Shown here in pieces: positions 25,937 through 33,903 of a stretch of DNA of 64,000 nt. Within the stretch, counting starts at the first letter, position 1; each line of letters begins with the position of its first letter. Made by a program: the position numbers and the translations under genes. The stretch is taken from NCBI GenBank assembly GCA_949292985.1, contig CASFBF010000011.1, positions 145,649 through 209,648 on the forward strand, written 5' to 3'. The stretch is from an uncultured Bacillota bacterium (GTDB taxonomy: Bacteria; Bacillota; Clostridia; Christensenellales; UBA1242). The notes under the pieces are model-generated. The model was not told the DNA's origin. It searched no databases and saw only the letters and a list, made by a program, of their open reading frames with translations.

Positions 25937-26158
25937 TCATCGTCTGTTTGGTATAAATCCAAGTGGTCTAACACGGTCGCTGTAAAATTCAACCATAAAT
26001 TTAAGTTGCCCATCCTCTTTCCTGTATCTAACTTTTACAGGCGAAGTCAACATTACAAAGTTTTTAACAGCATTTTGTATTTCATTTTGCAAAAGTTTTA
26101 ACATTTCTTCCCCAACATATTGCACATCATTCATAATCAAATTTTCAAGTCTTTGCAT
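25937..26158 (-). CDS. minE: MinE-like cell division topological specificity factor
   Basis: A 73-residue protein directly downstream of minD, as usual for MinE. The pattern QRLENLIMNDVQYVGEEMLKLLQNEIQNAVKNFV... KVRYRKEDGQLKFMVEF matches the MinE order of a MinD-contacting N-terminal strand, a helix with 'LxxLxxEIxxVIxKYV', and a beta strand pair. It is shorter than typical MinE (about 85-90) and diverged. ATG 26158 is chosen over GTG 26164 because AAGGAAGG is correctly spaced for it; the ribosome site lies in the minD 3' end. Identification depends on context as much as on sequence. Confidence 0.7.
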   Translation of the reverse strand: MQRLENLIMNDVQYVGEEMLKLLQNEIQNAVKNFVMLTSPVKVRYRKEDGQLKFMVEFYSDRVRPLGFIPNRR

Positions 26159-26160
26159 TC

Positions 26161-26952
26161 TCACACCTTCCTTTTTATGTTACGGCGAATATATCCCATA
26201 AACCCACGATATTTCATTTCACAATCGTAAATTTTCTTTGTGCCGTTATGAATGTTTTCACATAGCAATGTAAAAGCACGTGTGGATTCCTGTGAATTTA
26301 AGTAACCACCCACCGAACAAGCACTGCTAATTGCATCATCTTCTGGAATAACACCATACAAAGGTATGTGCAATGCTCTTACCACATCTTCTACTCTAAG
26401 CATTTCACCGTTTGCAAGCAAATCTCCACGCATCCTATTTATAACCAATCCTTTACTAGAAAGATTATATTCATTTAAAAGACTTAAAACTTTGTTAGCG
26501 TCTCGAATACTCGAAAGATGCGGTGTTACTACAACGATGGCCTCATTGGCTGAAAATACTGCACGATGAAATCCTGCATCAACTCCTGCTGGACAATCTA
26601 TTAAAATGTAGTCGAAAGAAGAATCAAGCATATTTAAAACACTTTTAACATGCTCACCTAAAATATGTGTTTTCCCACTATAATGCGACGATGGTAATAA
26701 AAATAAATTAGGAAACCTAATGTCTTCAACAAGTGCCTGTTTTGCCCTACATCTGCCCATAATAACATCAGTAATGTCAAAAACAACCTGCTTTTCAAGC
26801 CCCATAACAACATCTAAATTATTTAAACCAATGTCCACATCAACAAGCACGGTTCTAAAACCTAGCGATGCCAAATTAACGCCCAAATTAGCGCAAACTG
26901 TGGTTTTACCAACGCCACCTTTACCACTTGTTAACACAATTTTTCTTGCCAT
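26161..26952 (-). CDS. minD: septum-site determining ATPase MinD
   Basis: A membrane-cycling ATPase that positions the division site; 263 residues. It has the deviant Walker A GKGGVGKTTVCANLG (residues 10-24), VDVDIGLNNLDVVMGLE, the switch region DYILIDCPAGVDAGFHRAV, and VVVTPHLSSIRDANKV. The C-terminal GYIRRNIKRKV is the expected amphipathic membrane-targeting helix. It is followed by the minE-like gene and lies downstream of the MreB-like and Ppx/GppA-like genes on the same strand, though a terminator stands between mreB and minD. Confidence 0.95.
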   Translation of the reverse strand: MARKIVLTSGKGGVGKTTVCANLGVNLASLGFRTVLVDVDIGLNNLDVVMGLEKQVVFDITDVIMGRCRAKQALVEDIRFPNLFLLPSSHYSGKTHILGEHVKSVLNMLDSSFDYILIDCPAGVDAGFHRAVFSANEAIVVVTPHLSSIRDANKVLSLLNEYNLSSKGLVINRMRGDLLANGEMLRVEDVVRALHIPLYGVIPEDDAISSACSVGGYLNSQESTRAFTLLCENIHNGTKKIYDCEMKYRGFMGYIRRNIKRKV

Positions 26953-27052: not shown

Positions 27053-28045
27053 TTAAGACAAAACTTTTTTAAGCAGTGCTTCATCGCTAATAAGTTTTCC
27101 AGCCCCCAAAATTGCCACATTTTCAGCATCTTCACTAATCGTAAAATTATAAGTTAAATTGCGTTTTAAAAAGTCATCTAAACCCGTAATTTTGCTTACA
27201 CCACCAGTGAAAATCACACCATTTTTGATTATATCTGCTGAAATTTCAGGTGGAAGAGTGTTGATTGTTACATTTACCGTTCTAACAATTTCTTCTAAAA
27301 ATGCTTCAAAAACATGTCTTATATCTTTGCAAGAGATTATTTTAGTTTTAGGCATATTACTTACCCCATCTAACCCCATAACTTCCATGTTTAAAGTATC
27401 GTTTTTATAAAGCGAACCTATTTCGCTTTTAACTCTTTCAGCAGTTGGCAATCCAATTAAAATGCCGTCTTTTGCCATTGCCAAGGAATTTGCAAGTGCT
27501 ATATCCATGGCTCTGCCACCAATTCCAAGTGTTACGCCTTTTAATATAGAGCCCAAATTTACAACTGCTATGTCTGTTGTTGCGCCACCAATATCAACAA
27601 TCATGCTTGCTTTTGGTGAAAGAATGTTTACATTACACCCTAAAAGCGAACACAAAACCGCAGGAATAAGGCTTATTTCGTTAAAACCAAGTTTATCAAA
27701 AAGAGAATAATATTTTTTCTTTTCCTCTGCGCTTAATCCGCAAGGAATTAAAACCAAAATGTTGGAAGATTTTTTATACTTAATTTTCTTGAAAAATGTT
27801 GAAAGCATTATAAAAGTATATTCAAAGTTTTCAATAACGCCATTTGCAATAGGATTAAACACTTCAACTTCATCCAAAGTTTTCCAAACAAGTTTTTTTG
27901 CTTCCTCACCAACTGCTTTAACTTTGTAGCCTTCTGTGCTGGTTTCAACCGCAACCAAAGTAGGCTCTTTTAAAACAAAGCCTTGCTCTCTTGCAAAAAT
28001 CGTAGTGTTTGCTCCACCTAATTCAATGGCATAGTTGTAACGCAT
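27053..28045 (-). CDS. mreB: MreB-family actin-like rod-shape protein, divergent
   Basis: A 330-residue actin-fold protein of the MreB/Mbl group, which guides lateral wall synthesis. It has the phosphate-1 motif YAIELGGANTTIFA, where the family has IDLGTANT: the Mg-coordinating Asp is Glu and Thr is Gly. It also has FNPIANGVIENFEYT, the phosphate-2 motif VDIGGATTDIAVV, GGRAMDIALA, the adenosine-binding GVIFTGGVSKITGL and a C-terminal ILGAGKLI. The gene has an AAGGAGG site. It follows the Ppx/GppA-like gene by nine bases, and that neighbour also opens with IELAGAST, so the two probably act together. Confidence 0.88.
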   Translation of the reverse strand: MRYNYAIELGGANTTIFAREQGFVLKEPTLVAVETSTEGYKVKAVGEEAKKLVWKTLDEVEVFNPIANGVIENFEYTFIMLSTFFKKIKYKKSSNILVLIPCGLSAEEKKKYYSLFDKLGFNEISLIPAVLCSLLGCNVNILSPKASMIVDIGGATTDIAVVNLGSILKGVTLGIGGRAMDIALANSLAMAKDGILIGLPTAERVKSEIGSLYKNDTLNMEVMGLDGVSNMPKTKIISCKDIRHVFEAFLEEIVRTVNVTINTLPPEISADIIKNGVIFTGGVSKITGLDDFLKRNLTYNFTISEDAENVAILGAGKLISDEALLKKVLS

Positions 28046-28054
28046 AAAACCTCC

Positions 28055-29533
28055 TTAAATAAGTTGAAGATTTTTCTTGAAAAACTTTCTATAATCCTGA
28101 GCAACCTTCATCCCCTGCATAATTTCGTAAGTAGGGTCTGAATTAACAATAAGTTTCATGATTATAGAATCACCCAAAATATCGCAAACAATATCAGTTA
28201 CAACAAGTTTTTTAGAACTATTAAGTGCAACTGCAAGTTTAACAATAACGCCAAGTTTTCTTACTGCATTTAAGTCTTCATCTGTCAACAAATCTTTGTA
28301 TTTCATCCATTGTGAAAGATTAAAGTTGTCAGATGTTTGACAAGCGCAGATAAATGCGCCTAATAACAAGTCTTTTTGGCTTACTCCACACAATCCTGAA
28401 TTTAAAATAACATAAAATCCGTGCTTTTCATAATCTTCAAAGTTTATTTGTTTGCCACAATCAAACATATATGCCGCAACTCTTAAAGGTTTAACATATG
28501 CCCTAGGCAATTTATGCATAACTTTAAGTTGCTTAAACAATATGCCCGCCATATTTGCAACACGCAAATTGATGGAACTTTCGTCTTTAATAAATTCGTG
28601 GATGTTATCAAAAGAAGAGCCCAATAAATCTGAGAAACGCTCTTGAACATCATTAGAAATGCTTGAAATTATAACGCCTTCTCTAACATTTGCAGTTGAA
28701 ACGCACGCCTCTTGGATTTTTAATTTATCATAAATTGCACTTATGATAGCGAAGCCAGACAAAAGCACATCGCTTCTATCCTCCACCAATCCTTTAACTT
28801 TGGTTATTTTATCAAGGTCTAAGCCTTTCACAAAACTTATAACTTTATTTTCAAGTGTTTTGTTTACTGGATAGTTATTGTCAATTTCAAGTGGATAATG
28901 GTCTATTTTTTTTGCAACTCTACCTAAATTTATAAATGGATTACCTACGCCAACGATAGCCTCATCTTCATCAACATTAAGATTTTTAAAATTCATATTA
29001 CTTGTAAATTCCGCTTTCATTTGGTCAAAATCCAAACTGGCATTATTTATGTTTTCGTATCCAAAAGGAACAACTTCATATCCCAATGTCGTCCTTCTGT
29101 TGTATTTAATAAAATATGTGCTGTTTGTTGCAATATAAACAATCACTCCCTTTGAATTATCAATCTTGTTTACAACGGAAGTGTAAATATTTTTTACAAC
29201 ATCTTCTTCATTAAGAAAACTAAAACCAAGCCCAGTGTTATTATATATCTCTTCAAAAAAACCACGCTGATTTCTTGCTTGCAAGATAATATTGTTTGCA
29301 ACAGCGATAATTTTTTTAACCCCATTTTCTTCAACAATATTTCTGTAAAGTTTAAGAACTGCAACTATGTCTGAAATGGTTTTTGGTTTTAAAAGTTTTT
29401 CATCATTTATGTCTTTTGAAATATTAGCAGAGTCGCTTTCCTGCCTTACCAATCTACTTCTTCCATTTTGTGTCTCATAAATTGAAAGAACCGTGCTTGC
29501 GCCTGCTAATTCTATTATTGCAACTTTTTCCAT
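28055..29533 (-). CDS. Ppx/GppA-family phosphatase-like protein
   Basis: A 492-residue protein. The N-terminal two-thirds have the actin-like ASKHA layout of exopolyphosphatase/guanosine pentaphosphatase (VAIIELAGASTVLSIYETQ; later VIVYIATNSTYFIKYN and LLSGFAIISAIYD). The C-terminal third is a helical HD-like domain (VANMAGILFKQLKVMHKLP ... VAAYMFDCGKQINF). The usual DxGSNS opening is altered to ELAGAS, and the second phosphate motif (DIGGGS) is hard to see, so phosphatase activity is doubtful. It is the first gene of a pair with the MreB-like gene, suggesting a role in envelope growth or signalling. Confidence 0.72.
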   Translation of the reverse strand: MEKVAIIELAGASTVLSIYETQNGRSRLVRQESDSANISKDINDEKLLKPKTISDIVAVLKLYRNIVEENGVKKIIAVANNIILQARNQRGFFEEIYNNTGLGFSFLNEEDVVKNIYTSVVNKIDNSKGVIVYIATNSTYFIKYNRRTTLGYEVVPFGYENINNASLDFDQMKAEFTSNMNFKNLNVDEDEAIVGVGNPFINLGRVAKKIDHYPLEIDNNYPVNKTLENKVISFVKGLDLDKITKVKGLVEDRSDVLLSGFAIISAIYDKLKIQEACVSTANVREGVIISSISNDVQERFSDLLGSSFDNIHEFIKDESSINLRVANMAGILFKQLKVMHKLPRAYVKPLRVAAYMFDCGKQINFEDYEKHGFYVILNSGLCGVSQKDLLLGAFICACQTSDNFNLSQWMKYKDLLTDEDLNAVRKLGVIVKLAVALNSSKKLVVTDIVCDILGDSIIMKLIVNSDPTYEIMQGMKVAQDYRKFFKKNLQLI

Positions 29534-29545
29534 ATAAACCTCATT

Positions 29546-29716
29546 TTAATTGTCGTTTATAGCACTTACTGGACAACTAGCCTTACATGCTCCACATTTA
29601 ATGCATTTAGATTTATCAATAGATGCTTTCCCATTTTTATCAAATGAAATGGCTTCTACTGGGCAAATAGCAATGCATGTGCCACAACTTATACATTTTT
29701 TTGAATTTACAATCAT
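29546..29716 (-). CDS. 2[4Fe-4S] ferredoxin
   Basis: A 56-residue electron carrier. It has two CxxCxxCxxxCP clusters: Cys 8, 11, 14, 18 in CISCGTCIAICPVEAI and Cys 38, 41, 44, 48 in CIKCGACKASCPVSAI. This is the classical clostridial ferredoxin layout and supports an anaerobic lifestyle. ATG 29716 has a GAGG ribosome site. It lies 12 bases upstream of the Ppx/GppA-like gene and could share its transcript. Confidence 0.95.
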   Translation of the reverse strand: MIVNSKKCISCGTCIAICPVEAISFDKNGKASIDKSKCIKCGACKASCPVSAINDN

Positions 29717-29818
29717 TTTTAACCTCTTACAAGGTGTATTATATCATAACAAACTTGGTTTTGTCCACCTTTTTTTGATAAAACTTTTAAACAAAAATTC
29801 TTGAATTTGCCTAGTTTT

Positions 29819-30190
29819 TTAGGCTTTTTGTTTTTTTAATGCTTTAAAAAATTCACCTATTGCAAGCACAACTAAAAACCCACCAAAGCAACGCCTTAAA
29901 ACCATGCTTGGCAAAACAGTAGCCATGAATGCGCCAATAATGGCAAAAATTACTCCGCCTAGAATTATCCAAAATATATCTTTTGTAACAATCAGACCAT
30001 TTTTCGAATGAATGTATATAGAAAATATAGCCATAAACAAAAATGTAAGCAAATTTATGCCTTGACTTAGTTGTTGATCAAAATTTAAAAAAATAGTAAG
30101 CAACGGTATAAGCAATGTGCCACCACCCATACCTAGTCCACCAAAAAATCCACCAAGAATACCAAATAAAATTTGTAAAAAAATTATCAT
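29819..30190 (-). CDS. TauE/SafE-family permease, C-terminal half as separate protein
   Basis: A 123-residue integral membrane protein with about four hydrophobic helices and the family glycine motif GGLGMGGGTLLIPLLTIFL. TauE/SafE proteins export sulfite, sulfonates or related anions and are normally about 250 residues with two such halves. Here the second half is encoded separately and overlaps the preceding half-gene by four bases (ATGA), so the halves most likely assemble as a heterodimer. The substrate cannot be read from the sequence. Confidence 0.85.
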   Translation of the reverse strand: MIIFLQILFGILGGFFGGLGMGGGTLLIPLLTIFLNFDQQLSQGINLLTFLFMAIFSIYIHSKNGLIVTKDIFWIILGGVIFAIIGAFMATVLPSMVLRRCFGGFLVVLAIGEFFKALKKQKA

Positions 30191-30591
30191 ATCAACAATC
30201 TAATTCCTCCTATCAACATAATTACAGCGAAAATGATTCTTAAAGTTTTTGACGGAATAAATTTAAGCGCAAATGATCCCGCAATTCCACCTACAAGAAC
30301 TCCCAAACCCACTGTTAAAAGAGGAAGAGATTCAATACTTCCCTTAAATATGTAAATCACGCAACTTACAAGTGATAAAGGAAAGATTACTGCTATTGCC
30401 GTGGCATGAGCCTGCTTATTATTTAACCCCAATCCTTTTTCAAGAGTTGGAACGCAAATCATGCCTCCTCCGCCACCAAAAAAACCGTTTAAAAAACCCA
30501 CTATGCTACCCAGCATAATCAAGATAATCTTTTTTTTCAAAGGCGCTTTACCTTTAATCAACGATTTATTATTTTCATTTTTCATTTTCAC
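30187..30591 (-). CDS. TauE/SafE-family permease, N-terminal half as separate protein
   Basis: A 134-residue membrane protein with a basic N-terminus, about four helices and the glycine motif GFFGGGGGMICVPTLEKGLGLNNKQAHATA. It is the partner of the next gene (ATGA overlap). The start is taken as GTG 30591 because a perfect TATAAT (30603-30598) ends six bases before it and no ribosome site is seen; ATG 30585 two codons later is the alternative. Together the two genes replace a single TauE/SafE permease. Confidence 0.83.
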   Translation of the reverse strand: MKMKNENNKSLIKGKAPLKKKIILIMLGSIVGFLNGFFGGGGGMICVPTLEKGLGLNNKQAHATAIAVIFPLSLVSCVIYIFKGSIESLPLLTVGLGVLVGGIAGSFALKFIPSKTLRIIFAVIMLIGGIRLLI

Positions 30592-30652: not shown

Positions 30653-30684
30653 AAATCGTAACGTTAACTCAAAAGGTGTGCTAT

Positions 30685-33600
30685 ATGACAAAGAAAAAAT
30701 CAATACTTACAACATTATCATTACTTATTTTTGCGCTATTATTGCCCTTTGCAATGATTGTGCTGTTGCCAATCAAAATGCCAGTTAAAGCAAGCACTAT
30801 TGAAGAATATAGTGAAAGTGTTTCTATTACAAATTCAAGTTTTAACTCTATATCGTCTACATACTATGATGGCGATGTTTCTGGCTGGACAAGATATTGG
30901 GGAAACACCGGCGCAAAAACTATGATTATTGATATTCAAAACAAATTCGACCAGTATTCTTCATCAACATACTACCTTCAAAGCAACCCTGAAAAAGTGG
31001 GTACGGATAATAAAATATTGATGATCAATTCTGCAAATACTTCCCCTACTTCTTCAAATTTTAGTTCAAGAGAAATATCCGAAGGTTATATTTCTGATGC
31101 AATATCACTTTCAGCAAATTCCTATTATGAATTTCAAGTTTCAATGAAAACTCAATCATTCAATGAAGCAAATGCATTTGGGTCAGTTTATATTTCAGGT
31201 TTAGTTGATGAAAATGATGAAGCGATTAACGCTAATGTTGAATATCAAACTTGCAATAACTGGACAACTTATTATTTTTATATAGCAACAGGCAATCAGG
31301 ATCAATCTATCACAATTGACTTATGGTTAGGCACAAACGAACGCCCATCAACAGGAGTTGTTTTCTTTGATGAAGTAAGGGGTGTTCAACTTTCAGAAAA
31401 TGCATTTTACAAAAACATGGAACTTAACGACAAATACGGCATTGACTATGTTTTAGCAGACGGAATAGAAGATAGAAACATAATAAACACAGACAACCTT
31501 AATTTTAATTTTGAAAAAAGTTTAGAAGGTTCAATAAACAACCTTGTTGATTGGAATGTTACATCATCATCAATCGGCGGTCATGCAAGAATTTTGAATT
31601 TGAATAAAGGTGCATTTGAAGATGCAACCACATTTGAATATCCTGGCAGTGACCTTTCAGTAAACAATACCCAAGCGTTGGCACTTTGGGCATTTGATTC
31701 AAATGTTTCTGTAAAATCACAGCCATTTGAAATCAAATCTTTGGGATTATACAAAATAACACTTAATGTAAAAACTTCTGAATTAACAGCAGGCAATTTC
31801 ACAGTTTCAATAAATGAAACAAACTCAATTAAAGATGAATTTGGTTATCTTTCTTCATATGTACTTGGCAGTGCAACTTCTTCTGCCCTTTCAGCAAATG
31901 GTTCAAACAATCTTATAAACGGTTATTCACAGGTAACTTTCTATGTTCAAGGTCATGATAGATACGATTCAGAAGTAGAGTTGAGTTTAAACCTTGGCTC
32001 AACCGACTCCCATGCAACAGGAGCAGTTATCGTTGACAATATAACCGTTGAACTTGTAAGCAGTGAAGACTTTGTTACAGATGGCAATATTTTGCAATTA
32101 GCGACAGCACAAGCAGGCTCAACAACATTTACTAATGGATATTTCAACAAAGCATCAAACGCAACAAACACTTTAACATACCCTATTGCACCTGCTGACT
32201 GGACAATTACTAAGTCAGAAAACAACTCAAATCAAGAAGCAGGTATAATAAATGTTTATTCACCATATTTTGAATCTTATGATTTCTATTGGAAAGAATC
32301 ACTTGCAAACCCAGGTTCACCTGATGAGTATTCTTCAACGAATGATGTAAACAACATTTTGATGTTATACAACCAAACAAGTAACTATCAGTCAATCACA
32401 TCGTCAACATTTAATTTAGATGCAAACACTTACTATACATTAACTTTCAAATACAAAACATTAGGCAATGCATCATTTAACATTAAAATAACTGATGAAG
32501 ATGGAATTAAACTTTTAACACAAACATCACTATCAAACAACAGTTGGACAACTTATAAATGCGAAATATATACTGGTGAGGTTGCATCAACATCACAATT
32601 AACCATTGAACTTGGCACAGAAGAAGAAATGGTTTCAGGTTATGCATTTTTTGATAATTTTGAAATAAACACTTCAACCGCAGAAAAATTTGAGACTGCA
32701 AGCGTACAGATTGACCTTTCGGGGTTTATGCTTAACTTGGACCCTAATAACGAAATAACAAACAACATCACTTCATCAAACGCTTACACAGGAAAAATAG
32801 TTTCTGGCGACAGCAATTCTGCAAAAGGTGGAATTATTAAAGGTGAAGGTAACGATGCCTTTGAATATGTAAACGATAATGGCGAAATCTTACCTATTGA
32901 TGATGGAAGCCTAACAAAAAATGTGCTTGTAATTCAAACTGACAAACCTTCAACTTTCTCATTAACTTCAAACTTTACAATATCAGCAAGTTCAAGCAAA
33001 TCATATTATGAACTTTCGTTCAGACTTCTCACTTCCTTCCCTTCATACTCAGGAACACATATACATGATGGCGAAGAAGTAGATACTAAATTTGGTGTTT
33101 CAATTGGTTTGAACGATTTTGATAAAATTGAAGGCTTAACATCAAATAACGGTTGGACTGAATATAAAATTTTGTTTAACACATCAGAAGATAAAGATGT
33201 TGCGTTTGTGTTCAGCCTTATTTCTGATTGCAGAGATACAACAGGATACGCTTTCCTGACTGATATAAGTTGGAAAGAAAGCGATGCCGAAACATATAAC
33301 ACAGCAAGCAGACAAGCAGAATTCAACAAAACTCTATTTACAACATCAACCACAGTATCAACAGATACAGATGGAGATGACGGTGATGACAACACAACTG
33401 ACACAACAACTGACAATAACCTAAATGAAACATTGTGGGTGCTCATACCTTCCCTTATCCTTGCTGTGGTTTTAATAATTGCTGTTGTAGCATTTGCTCT
33501 TAAACATGTAAAATTTAAAAAATCAGTTAAAATTGACAAGAAAAATTACGACAGAGAAGAATCATTACATGCAGATATTTTAACAAATCAAGCAAAAGAA

Positions 33601-33903
33601 ATACAAAAAGCGGAAATAGAAAAAGTTAATGGCCACATTGAAACCATTAAAGCACAAATTGCAGATCTTGAAGAGAATAACAAACAAACCATTGCTCAAT
33701 CAAGACAGCAAGGAAAAGTTACAAAATCAGTTGAAAAGCAATTTAAATCTTTCGCTCAAAAGCGTGCCACTTTACAAAAAACAATGGATGAACTCAATGA
33801 ACATAAATCATTCATTGAAACAAAAGACTATTTGATTACTATTGAAAAACGCATCATTTCAAATAGAAAAAAACAGTCAAAACAGAATAAGAAACAAAAA
33901 TAA
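30685..33903 (+). CDS. large surface protein with repeated carbohydrate-binding-type domains and cytoplasmic coiled coil
   Basis: A 1072-residue exported protein. The signal segment (about 8-35) ends PVKAS. The extracellular part holds at least four jelly-roll modules of the CBM_4/9 type, each closing with a related strand: STGVVFFDEV, ATGAVIVDNI, VSGYAFFDNF and TTGYAFLTDI. A low-complexity Asp/Thr linker leads to a transmembrane helix (about 923-945, LWVLIPSLILAVVLIIAVVAF). About 125 cytoplasmic residues form a Lys/Glu/Gln-rich coiled coil (AKEIQKAEIEKVNGHIETIKAQ...). Sugar or wall binding is inferred from the modules. A coiled coil of this size inside the cell is unusual for a surface adhesin. 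ATG 30685 has AAAAGG eight bases upstream. A terminator follows. Confidence 0.82.
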   Translation: MTKKKSILTTLSLLIFALLLPFAMIVLLPIKMPVKASTIEEYSESVSITNSSFNSISSTYYDGDVSGWTRYWGNTGAKTMIIDIQNKFDQYSSSTYYLQSNPEKVGTDNKILMINSANTSPTSSNFSSREISEGYISDAISLSANSYYEFQVSMKTQSFNEANAFGSVYISGLVDENDEAINANVEYQTCNNWTTYYFYIATGNQDQSITIDLWLGTNERPSTGVVFFDEVRGVQLSENAFYKNMELNDKYGIDYVLADGIEDRNIINTDNLNFNFEKSLEGSINNLVDWNVTSSSIGGHARILNLNKGAFEDATTFEYPGSDLSVNNTQALALWAFDSNVSVKSQPFEIKSLGLYKITLNVKTSELTAGNFTVSINETNSIKDEFGYLSSYVLGSATSSALSANGSNNLINGYSQVTFYVQGHDRYDSEVELSLNLGSTDSHATGAVIVDNITVELVSSEDFVTDGNILQLATAQAGSTTFTNGYFNKASNATNTLTYPIAPADWTITKSENNSNQEAGIINVYSPYFESYDFYWKESLANPGSPDEYSSTNDVNNILMLYNQTSNYQSITSSTFNLDANTYYTLTFKYKTLGNASFNIKITDEDGIKLLTQTSLSNNSWTTYKCEIYTGEVASTSQLTIELGTEEEMVSGYAFFDNFEINTSTAEKFETASVQIDLSGFMLNLDPNNEITNNITSSNAYTGKIVSGDSNSAKGGIIKGEGNDAFEYVNDNGEILPIDDGSLTKNVLVIQTDKPSTFSLTSNFTISASSSKSYYELSFRLLTSFPSYSGTHIHDGEEVDTKFGVSIGLNDFDKIEGLTSNNGWTEYKILFNTSEDKDVAFVFSLISDCRDTTGYAFLTDISWKESDAETYNTASRQAEFNKTLFTTSTTVSTDTDGDDGDDNTTDTTTDNNLNETLWVLIPSLILAVVLIIAVVAFALKHVKFKKSVKIDKKNYDREESLHADILTNQAKEIQKAEIEKVNGHIETIKAQIADLEENNKQTIAQSRQQGKVTKSVEKQFKSFAQKRATLQKTMDELNEHKSFIETKDYLITIEKRIISNRKKQSKQNKKQK

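Follow-up and report, generated by a model that had tools for sequence, protein, structure and literature searches.

Two adjacent genes of an uncultured Bacillota bacterium raise the question of whether the same substitution in two actin-fold proteins reflects a joint change in how they use nucleotides and, if it does not, what has become of each protein. The genes lie nine bases apart on the reverse strand of a 64,000-nucleotide stretch (assembly GCA_949292985.1, contig CASFBF010000011.1, positions 145,649 to 209,648), the whole of which is referred to here as the window. Their products, an MreB-like protein beginning AIELGGANT and a Ppx/GppA-like protein beginning AIIELAGAST, each carry glutamate in place of the phosphate-1 aspartate, as the initial annotation of the locus had recorded, and it was from this parallel that an interacting heteromer with altered nucleotide use was proposed. 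An altered nucleotide chemistry does appear likely in both proteins, given the replacement of their catalytic glutamates and of loop positions; the coordination of the two changes is contradicted by the comparisons described below. On balance, we incline to the view that the locus is a relic clostridial mreB-min neighbourhood rebuilt by reductive evolution, in which an MreB-derived scaffold poor in hydrolysis would be accompanied by a non-catalytic Ppx relative. The two genes, and the elements on which the argument turns, are located in the window as follows.

28055-29533, reverse strand: Ppx/GppA-like protein of 492 amino acids with a dismantled active site (Pfam PF02541 and PF21447, lost catalytic and phosphate-loop positions, and a model matching Ppx/GppA structures).
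29510-29512, reverse strand: codon of Ppx-like Glu8, at the phosphate-1 aspartate position (genus and other-family alignments).
29198-29200, reverse strand: codon of Ppx-like Val112, in the place of the Deinococcus radiodurans PPX glutamate mutated in structure 8jgt (E114A; alignments and the title of 8jgt).
28050-28055, reverse strand: Shine-Dalgarno-like AGGAGG that precedes the mreB start and shares bases with the ppx stop codon (sequence).
27053-28045, reverse strand: MreB-derived actin-like protein of 330 amino acids (profile search and alignment with 1jce).
28022-28024, reverse strand: codon of MreB Glu8, equivalent to Asp9 of Thermotoga maritima MreB and, by family equivalence, to Asp12 of Spiroplasma MreB5.
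27764-27775, reverse strand: MreB residues 91-94, a shortened loop without hydrophobic residues that replaces the membrane loop (alignment).
27659-27661, reverse strand: codon of MreB Ala129, in the place of the catalytic Glu131 of T. maritima MreB (1jce alignment).

All comparisons were made among 61 genomes, comprising that of the window, 36 further genomes of its genus and 24 from other families of the order. Residue counts for the genus are taken from full-length open reading frames (ORFs), which for MreB cover 32 of the 37 genomes, the window's included (G019 and G026 were unfetched, G022 was partial, and G015 and G030 gave no match), and for Ppx cover 34 (G001 and G030 gave no match and G019 was unfetched).

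Across its length, the MreB-like protein belongs to its family, matching PF06723 (MreB_Mbl) over residues 4-323 with 258 bits against a cut-off of 27, and it falls below the cut-offs of the NCBIfam MreB subfamily models (252 against 293 and 237.5 against 365.75 bits). A canonical mreB elsewhere in the genome, for which the initial annotation had suggested looking, was not found by the PF06723 search of the assembly (897,309 bases, 11 contigs, 98.96% complete), the matches being confined to three places, namely the window mreB, DnaK and FtsA. Similarly, 35 of the 37 genus genomes have an MreB match, one apiece except for weak matches located at FtsA. Position 8 of these proteins is glutamate in 31 of the 32 read and aspartate in one (G011), and Glu8 is, to judge from the alignment, a trait of the clade and not chance. 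The catalytic position, 129, is occupied by serine (13), threonine (12), alanine (6) or lysine (1) and never by glutamate, whilst position 151, the second magnesium-binding aspartate, is asparagine in 20 proteins and aspartate in 12. Threonine is present at position 156 in only seven, and position 158 is aspartate or glutamate in all 32. Much of the glycine framework persists, with glycines 10, 11, 153, 154 and 281 invariant and 282 retained in 31 proteins, although Gly11 itself stands in place of a threonine or serine.

The functions of the equivalent residues are known from other bacteria. In published work, the magnesium waters of Spiroplasma MreB5 are described as held by Asp12, Glu134 and Asp156, with Glu134 assisting hydrolysis and E134A termed a deficient mutant, and the attacking water of Caulobacter MreB is described as positioned by E140 and T167. 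The alpha2-beta7 loop is reported to be a membrane anchor of T. maritima and Geobacillus MreB. None of 23 genus rows has two or more hydrophobic residues in this loop, whereas in other families two or more are present in 18 of the 19 MreBs that have the catalytic glutamate and in 10 of the 12 that lack it. An N-terminal amphipathic helix was not found as an alternative anchor, the extension being too short, with three to six residues before the window's Tyr5 when the last methionine of the frame is taken as the start. The genus protein thus shares full-length homology and most loop glycines with MreB of T. maritima (1jce), C. crescentus (4czf) and Spiroplasma (MreB5) but differs from them in lacking the catalytic glutamate (E131, E140 and E134, respectively) and the hydrophobic loop, in having glutamate for the first magnesium-binding aspartate, and in the failure to find MreC in its genomes: PF04085 matched in none of the 37 genus genomes, compared with 8 of the 24 others. 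Full-length SEDS proteins never number more than one per genus genome, with none in G028 and a partial one only in G015.

A closer parallel is offered by Spiroplasma MreB3, which also lacks the E...T-X-[D/E] hydrolysis motif and which is reported to release phosphate slowly and still to polymerise. Even so, MreB3 is there reported to coexist with other MreBs, whereas the genus protein is the only MreB found, and to have aspartate and lysine at the motif places, whereas the genus protein has serine, threonine, alanine or lysine in place of the glutamate.

Loss of the catalytic glutamate extends beyond the genus. A quick maximum-likelihood analysis of 58 MreB rows, 23 of them from the genus, places 21 canonical rows, which have Asp8 in every case and the catalytic glutamate in 19, across a fully supported branch (SH-aLRT) from 37 others in which that glutamate is never found. 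These 37 comprise the 23 genus rows, four from a sister family (f19), L047, and the divergent MreBs of G038, G041, G043, G044, G045, G050, G052, G055 and G060, so the loss is wider than the genus. Glu8 is carried by 22 of the 23 genus rows and all four f19 rows, and at least three changes between glutamate and other residues are needed on the tree; among the other families, its branches are long and its resolution weak, so that single and double gains of the glutamate are not separated. Separately, G038 and the f19 genomes G054, G063 and G064 carry MreB paralogues in tandem, two or three in number, that bear an EEE[IV]KA-type motif (L105, L129 and L153). In G039 (L106), the MreB adjoining the MreC gene has lysine at the place of the catalytic glutamate (LIEKP), and an MreB of a rod complex may therefore lack this residue too.

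The Ppx/GppA-like protein has departed further from its relatives. It matches PF02541 (Ppx-GppA) with 73 bits against a cut-off of 27 and PF21447 with 47 bits, and a Foldseek search with its AlphaFold model, which is reliable only for about residues 1-292, returned an Aquifex Ppx/GppA as best match (E 2.8e-21). It has the same domains as the proteins of Escherichia coli (1u6z), D. radiodurans (8jgo) and Helicobacter pylori (6pc0). In contrast to these, the residues of the active site are largely gone. E121, D143 and E150 of E. coli Ppx are reported to be necessary for activity; in the genus, glutamate is found in none of 34 proteins at the first of these places (position 112, also that of D. 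radiodurans E114), aspartate in five at the second (133) and glutamate in none at the third (140), the last of which is glutamate in only 1 of 14 other-family rows. Those 14 rows all have aspartate at position 8, and 12 have glutamate at 112. Both the phosphate-1 and phosphate-2 loops (DxGSN and DIGGGS) have been lost in the genus, together with most of their glycines. Position 8 is glutamate in 26 genus proteins, glutamine in three, threonine in two, and isoleucine, lysine and serine in one each, so that in the alignment Glu8 is a common yet unconserved letter at a degenerate site. The last domain is, by contrast with these motifs, strongly conserved within the genus and has invariant C-terminal residues, and His340 is present in all 34 genomes. 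Nor was a polyphosphate kinase found above cut-off: PPK1 matched in none of the 37 genus genomes (7 of the 24 others), and PPK2 exceeded its cut-off in none (5 of the 24 others), with one sub-threshold match in G001. From these alignments, the protein is probably non-catalytic, with a structural or regulatory role. Yeast Rtg2p is reported to be a Ppx/GppA relative with a signalling function, although it keeps E137 and D158, the equivalents of which are lost in all and in most, respectively, of the genus genomes read.

Both genes are apparently under purifying selection, as judged from codon comparisons. The ratios of non-synonymous to synonymous substitution (dN/dS) are 0.035, 0.051 and 0.014 for mreB, ppx and minD against the metagenome-assembled locus L034, 0.058, 0.093 and 0.031 against L046, and 0.147, 0.047 and undefined against L035, and these are rough values since dS approaches saturation (1.1 to 1.8; 1.1, 4.5 and undefined for the L035 pair). 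Their association is also conserved. The pair was followed in 23 mapped genus stretches, using a second set of gene calls because the map omits ORFs overlapped by longer ones, and the two genes occur together in 21 of the 23. The exceptions, G001 and G015, are at contig ends, and the missing partner (Ppx and MreB, respectively) had no match elsewhere in the assembly. In 16 of the 21 stretches, though not in the window, a trypsin-like protein of about 380-475 amino acids with a hydrophobic N-terminus lies between ppx and mreB, an assignment based on a Pfam search of one member (e.g. L083 6729-7961 and equivalents). The two genes are also no more than one gene apart in G038, G041, G048, G050 and G060, all from other families, which makes the pairing an old synteny and by itself little sign of contact between the proteins. 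In ten mapped other-family stretches, mreB is preceded by what we take, from a sequence motif, to be a Maf-like gene, and in L104, L111, L113, L117 and L130, likewise from other families, ppx is preceded by what is presumably an Rnf-like electron-transport operon.

Downstream of mreB in the window are two further genes on the same strand.

26161-26952, reverse strand: minD, with a deviant Walker A motif and a C-terminal tail that is amphipathic by eye (TIGR01968 and alignment).
25937-26158, reverse strand: minE-like ORF of 73 amino acids (PF03776, 18.5 bits, below the cut-off of 25).

A cluster with minD and minE-like genes had been described from the outset, and of these minD is secure, its product passing the TIGR01968 equivalog cut-off (283 bits against 212.9), while the minE-like gene is known only from a sub-threshold match. 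Of four genus MinE-like proteins, three scored 18.5, 21.4 and 17.2 bits and one gave no match; MinE of the sister-family genome G038 scored 34.9 bits, above the cut-off. MinD and a MinE-like ORF are present in 19 of the 23 fetched genus stretches, minD follows mreB in the same orientation in 19 of 22 (a contig end truncates one of the others), and the deviant Walker motif and the tail, again amphipathic by eye, are kept in 20 aligned genus rows. The arrangement therefore resembles MinCDE in having MinD followed by a MinE-like ORF and is unlike it in that the C-terminal domain of MinC (MinC_C) was found in none of the 37 genus genomes, compared with 3 of the 24 others. The neighbourhood of mreB and minD is shared with MreBs of the order that retain MreC, the two genes being found on the same strand of a single stretch, separated by other genes, in the MreC-bearing genomes G037, G039 and G053.

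Beyond these genes, a short ferredoxin-like stretch, perhaps a remnant, lies upstream of ppx in the window (about 29555-29800, reverse strand). At 29819-30591 (reverse strand) are two consecutive half-length ORFs, one of which was tested and is TauE/SafE-like; they are perhaps a split transporter, and a similar tandem pair occurs in most mapped genus stretches. The cluster is flanked by very long proteins (window 30676-33903; L082 11154-16001) that, by eye, are perhaps surface-exposed, and the first family of these is present in 20 of the 23 mapped stretches.

How the favoured reading would work can be set out from these observations. An MreB that has lost its catalytic glutamate, exchanged its first magnesium-binding aspartate for glutamate and often its second for asparagine, and lost its hydrophobic membrane loop, in a cell with no detectable MreC, would have slow or no hydrolysis, so that its filaments would be set by nucleotide binding and not by turnover. 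Without membrane insertion of its own, such a protein would need a partner and would work without MreC. MinD, with its tail kept, is the natural candidate for this membrane partner, albeit a doubtful one. That the actin-like protein still binds nucleotide, with slow hydrolysis or none, is, from its residues, about evenly balanced, a confidence lowered by the replacement of a further loop position: the third glycine of the phosphate-2 loop (155) is alanine, threonine or serine in 22 of the 23 genus rows, and 28 of 31 others have glycine there. This substitution heads a series of points that weigh against the favoured reading. Nucleotide binding by the genus protein is itself uncertain from the alignment, and catalytic loss in both proteins is likewise read from aligned residues. 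Asp151 is retained in 12 of the 32 MreBs, including that of the window, another residue could replace the catalytic glutamate, and glutamate can coordinate magnesium through water. The AlphaFold model of the MreB-like protein is too poor (pLDDT 60) to have served in a fold search or in a three-dimensional view of the pocket. Within the order, G039 has MreC, yet both of its MreBs lack the catalytic glutamate, and G046 (98% complete) retains that glutamate without an MreC match; the two losses are thus not strictly coupled. The conservation of the locus is also imperfect, with no Ppx-like match in G001, no MreB in G015 and neither in G030, although these assemblies are incomplete, and G029 and G036 showed no minD downstream of mreB. 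MinC was sought with the model of its C-terminal domain only, and the high dS noted above applies here as well.

The strongest of the alternatives, although an unlikely one, is that both proteins remain active enzymes, with glutamate serving as the aspartate did and another acidic residue replacing the catalytic glutamate. The acid at position 8 of every genus MreB and the acid at position 158 fit this proposal, as do acidic residues at positions 110 and 111 of the genus Ppx proteins, and a (p)ppGpp substrate for the Ppx relative could exist, RelA/SpoT being present in 36 of the 37 genus genomes. It is opposed by the complete absence of the catalytic glutamate from the 32 MreBs and 34 Ppx proteins, by the assistance to hydrolysis and the E134A deficiency ascribed to Glu134 in the published account of Spiroplasma MreB5, and by the loss of most Ppx loop glycines in a genus with no polyphosphate kinase above cut-off.

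A second alternative makes the MreB-like protein a client of MinD and MinE, or an effector replacing MinC, with the Ppx-like protein as adaptor, and this we regard as improbable. It would account for the lack of MinC_C in genomes that keep the MinD tail and Walker motif, for an MreB without a hydrophobic membrane loop and for the position of minD downstream on the same strand; moreover, MinDE alone is reported to transport other proteins bound to membranes in vitro, among them constructs that carry the MreB membrane helix. Against it, the joint occurrence of mreB and minD in the three MreC-bearing genomes means that the arrangement may be inherited synteny, and the genus MinE-like proteins are below the Pfam cut-off. 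In its fullest form, in which MinD and MinE would pattern an MreB-derived, ATPase-poor actin without a membrane anchor of its own, which MinD recruits and which stands in for MinC, the dead Ppx serving as adaptor, the proposal is slightly less probable again. If true, it would represent a MinC-free bacterial Min system with an actin filament as its cargo.

The heteromer of the initial annotation, with its aspartate-to-glutamate changes as a coordinated change of nucleotide use, has far less in its favour and is very improbable. Besides the short gap and the conserved neighbourhood of the genes, both proteins have glutamate at position 8 in 23 of the 31 genus genomes in which both were read. 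However, in the sister family f19, MreB has Glu8 in each of the four genomes that yielded it (G054, G061, G062 and G063; it was not found in G064 and G065), while Ppx retains IDLGSNS and the catalytic glutamate in six of six, with a phosphate-2 loop already altered at its first glycine. Conversely, G066 keeps the aspartate in MreB, and its Ppx, despite degenerate loops, keeps both the aspartate and the catalytic glutamate. Within the genus, position 8 of Ppx is a residue other than glutamate in 8 of 34 proteins, and another gene intervenes between the pair in most stretches. The same exchange is also found in FtsA, which is encoded elsewhere: glutamate occupies its phosphate-1 position in 19 of the 30 rows from the genus and in 6 of the 20 from other families, including the FtsA of the window's own genome (G000, L139 2638-3759; CLEIGSS). 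These rows leave out G009, G022, G026, G034, G042 and G060 as unfetched and G019 and G051 as partial, and FtsA had no match in G013, G028 and G058. The aspartate-glutamate exchange thus recurs in the order, although it is not a genome-wide habit, since DnaK of the same genome has canonical loops (IGIDLGTTNS and DLGGGTFD). A coordinated change was rejected on the evidence of f19, G066 and FtsA, and the glutamates very probably arose separately in the two proteins, that of Ppx by drift. Two findings had been named beforehand as telling against the proposal, namely glutamate in the only MreB of the relatives and the lack of a link to the Ppx-like gene; the first is what the genus has, while the link proved to be real. 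The case cautions that, when actin-fold proteins encoded side by side share a single changed residue, the likeness can be coincidence.

Least probable of all is decay, in which both genes would now serve no function and be in the course of loss from a shrinking genome. While the 0.9 Mb genome, the degenerate motifs and the failure to find MreC, MinC_C or polyphosphate kinase would suit it, full-length ORFs in 32 (MreB) and 34 (Ppx) genus genomes, dN/dS of 0.236 or less in every scorable Ppx domain, the invariant Ppx C-terminal residues and the conserved gene order do not, and decaying pseudogenes were set aside as unlikely on dN/dS and ORF integrity.

The components of the favoured reading, a rebuilt mreB-min neighbourhood with a hydrolysis-poor actin and a non-catalytic Ppx, are known singly, the one from an MreB that lacks the hydrolysis motif and the other from a Ppx relative with a signalling role. 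A limited search of the open-access literature returned no paper on a sole MreB of this kind or on an mreB-ppx pair. The genus protein bears on the extent to which MreB function depends on ATP turnover, a matter that can be tested with small proteins, and it provides a case of an MreB retained under apparent selection after loss of the rod complex, beside MinD and a MinE-like protein.

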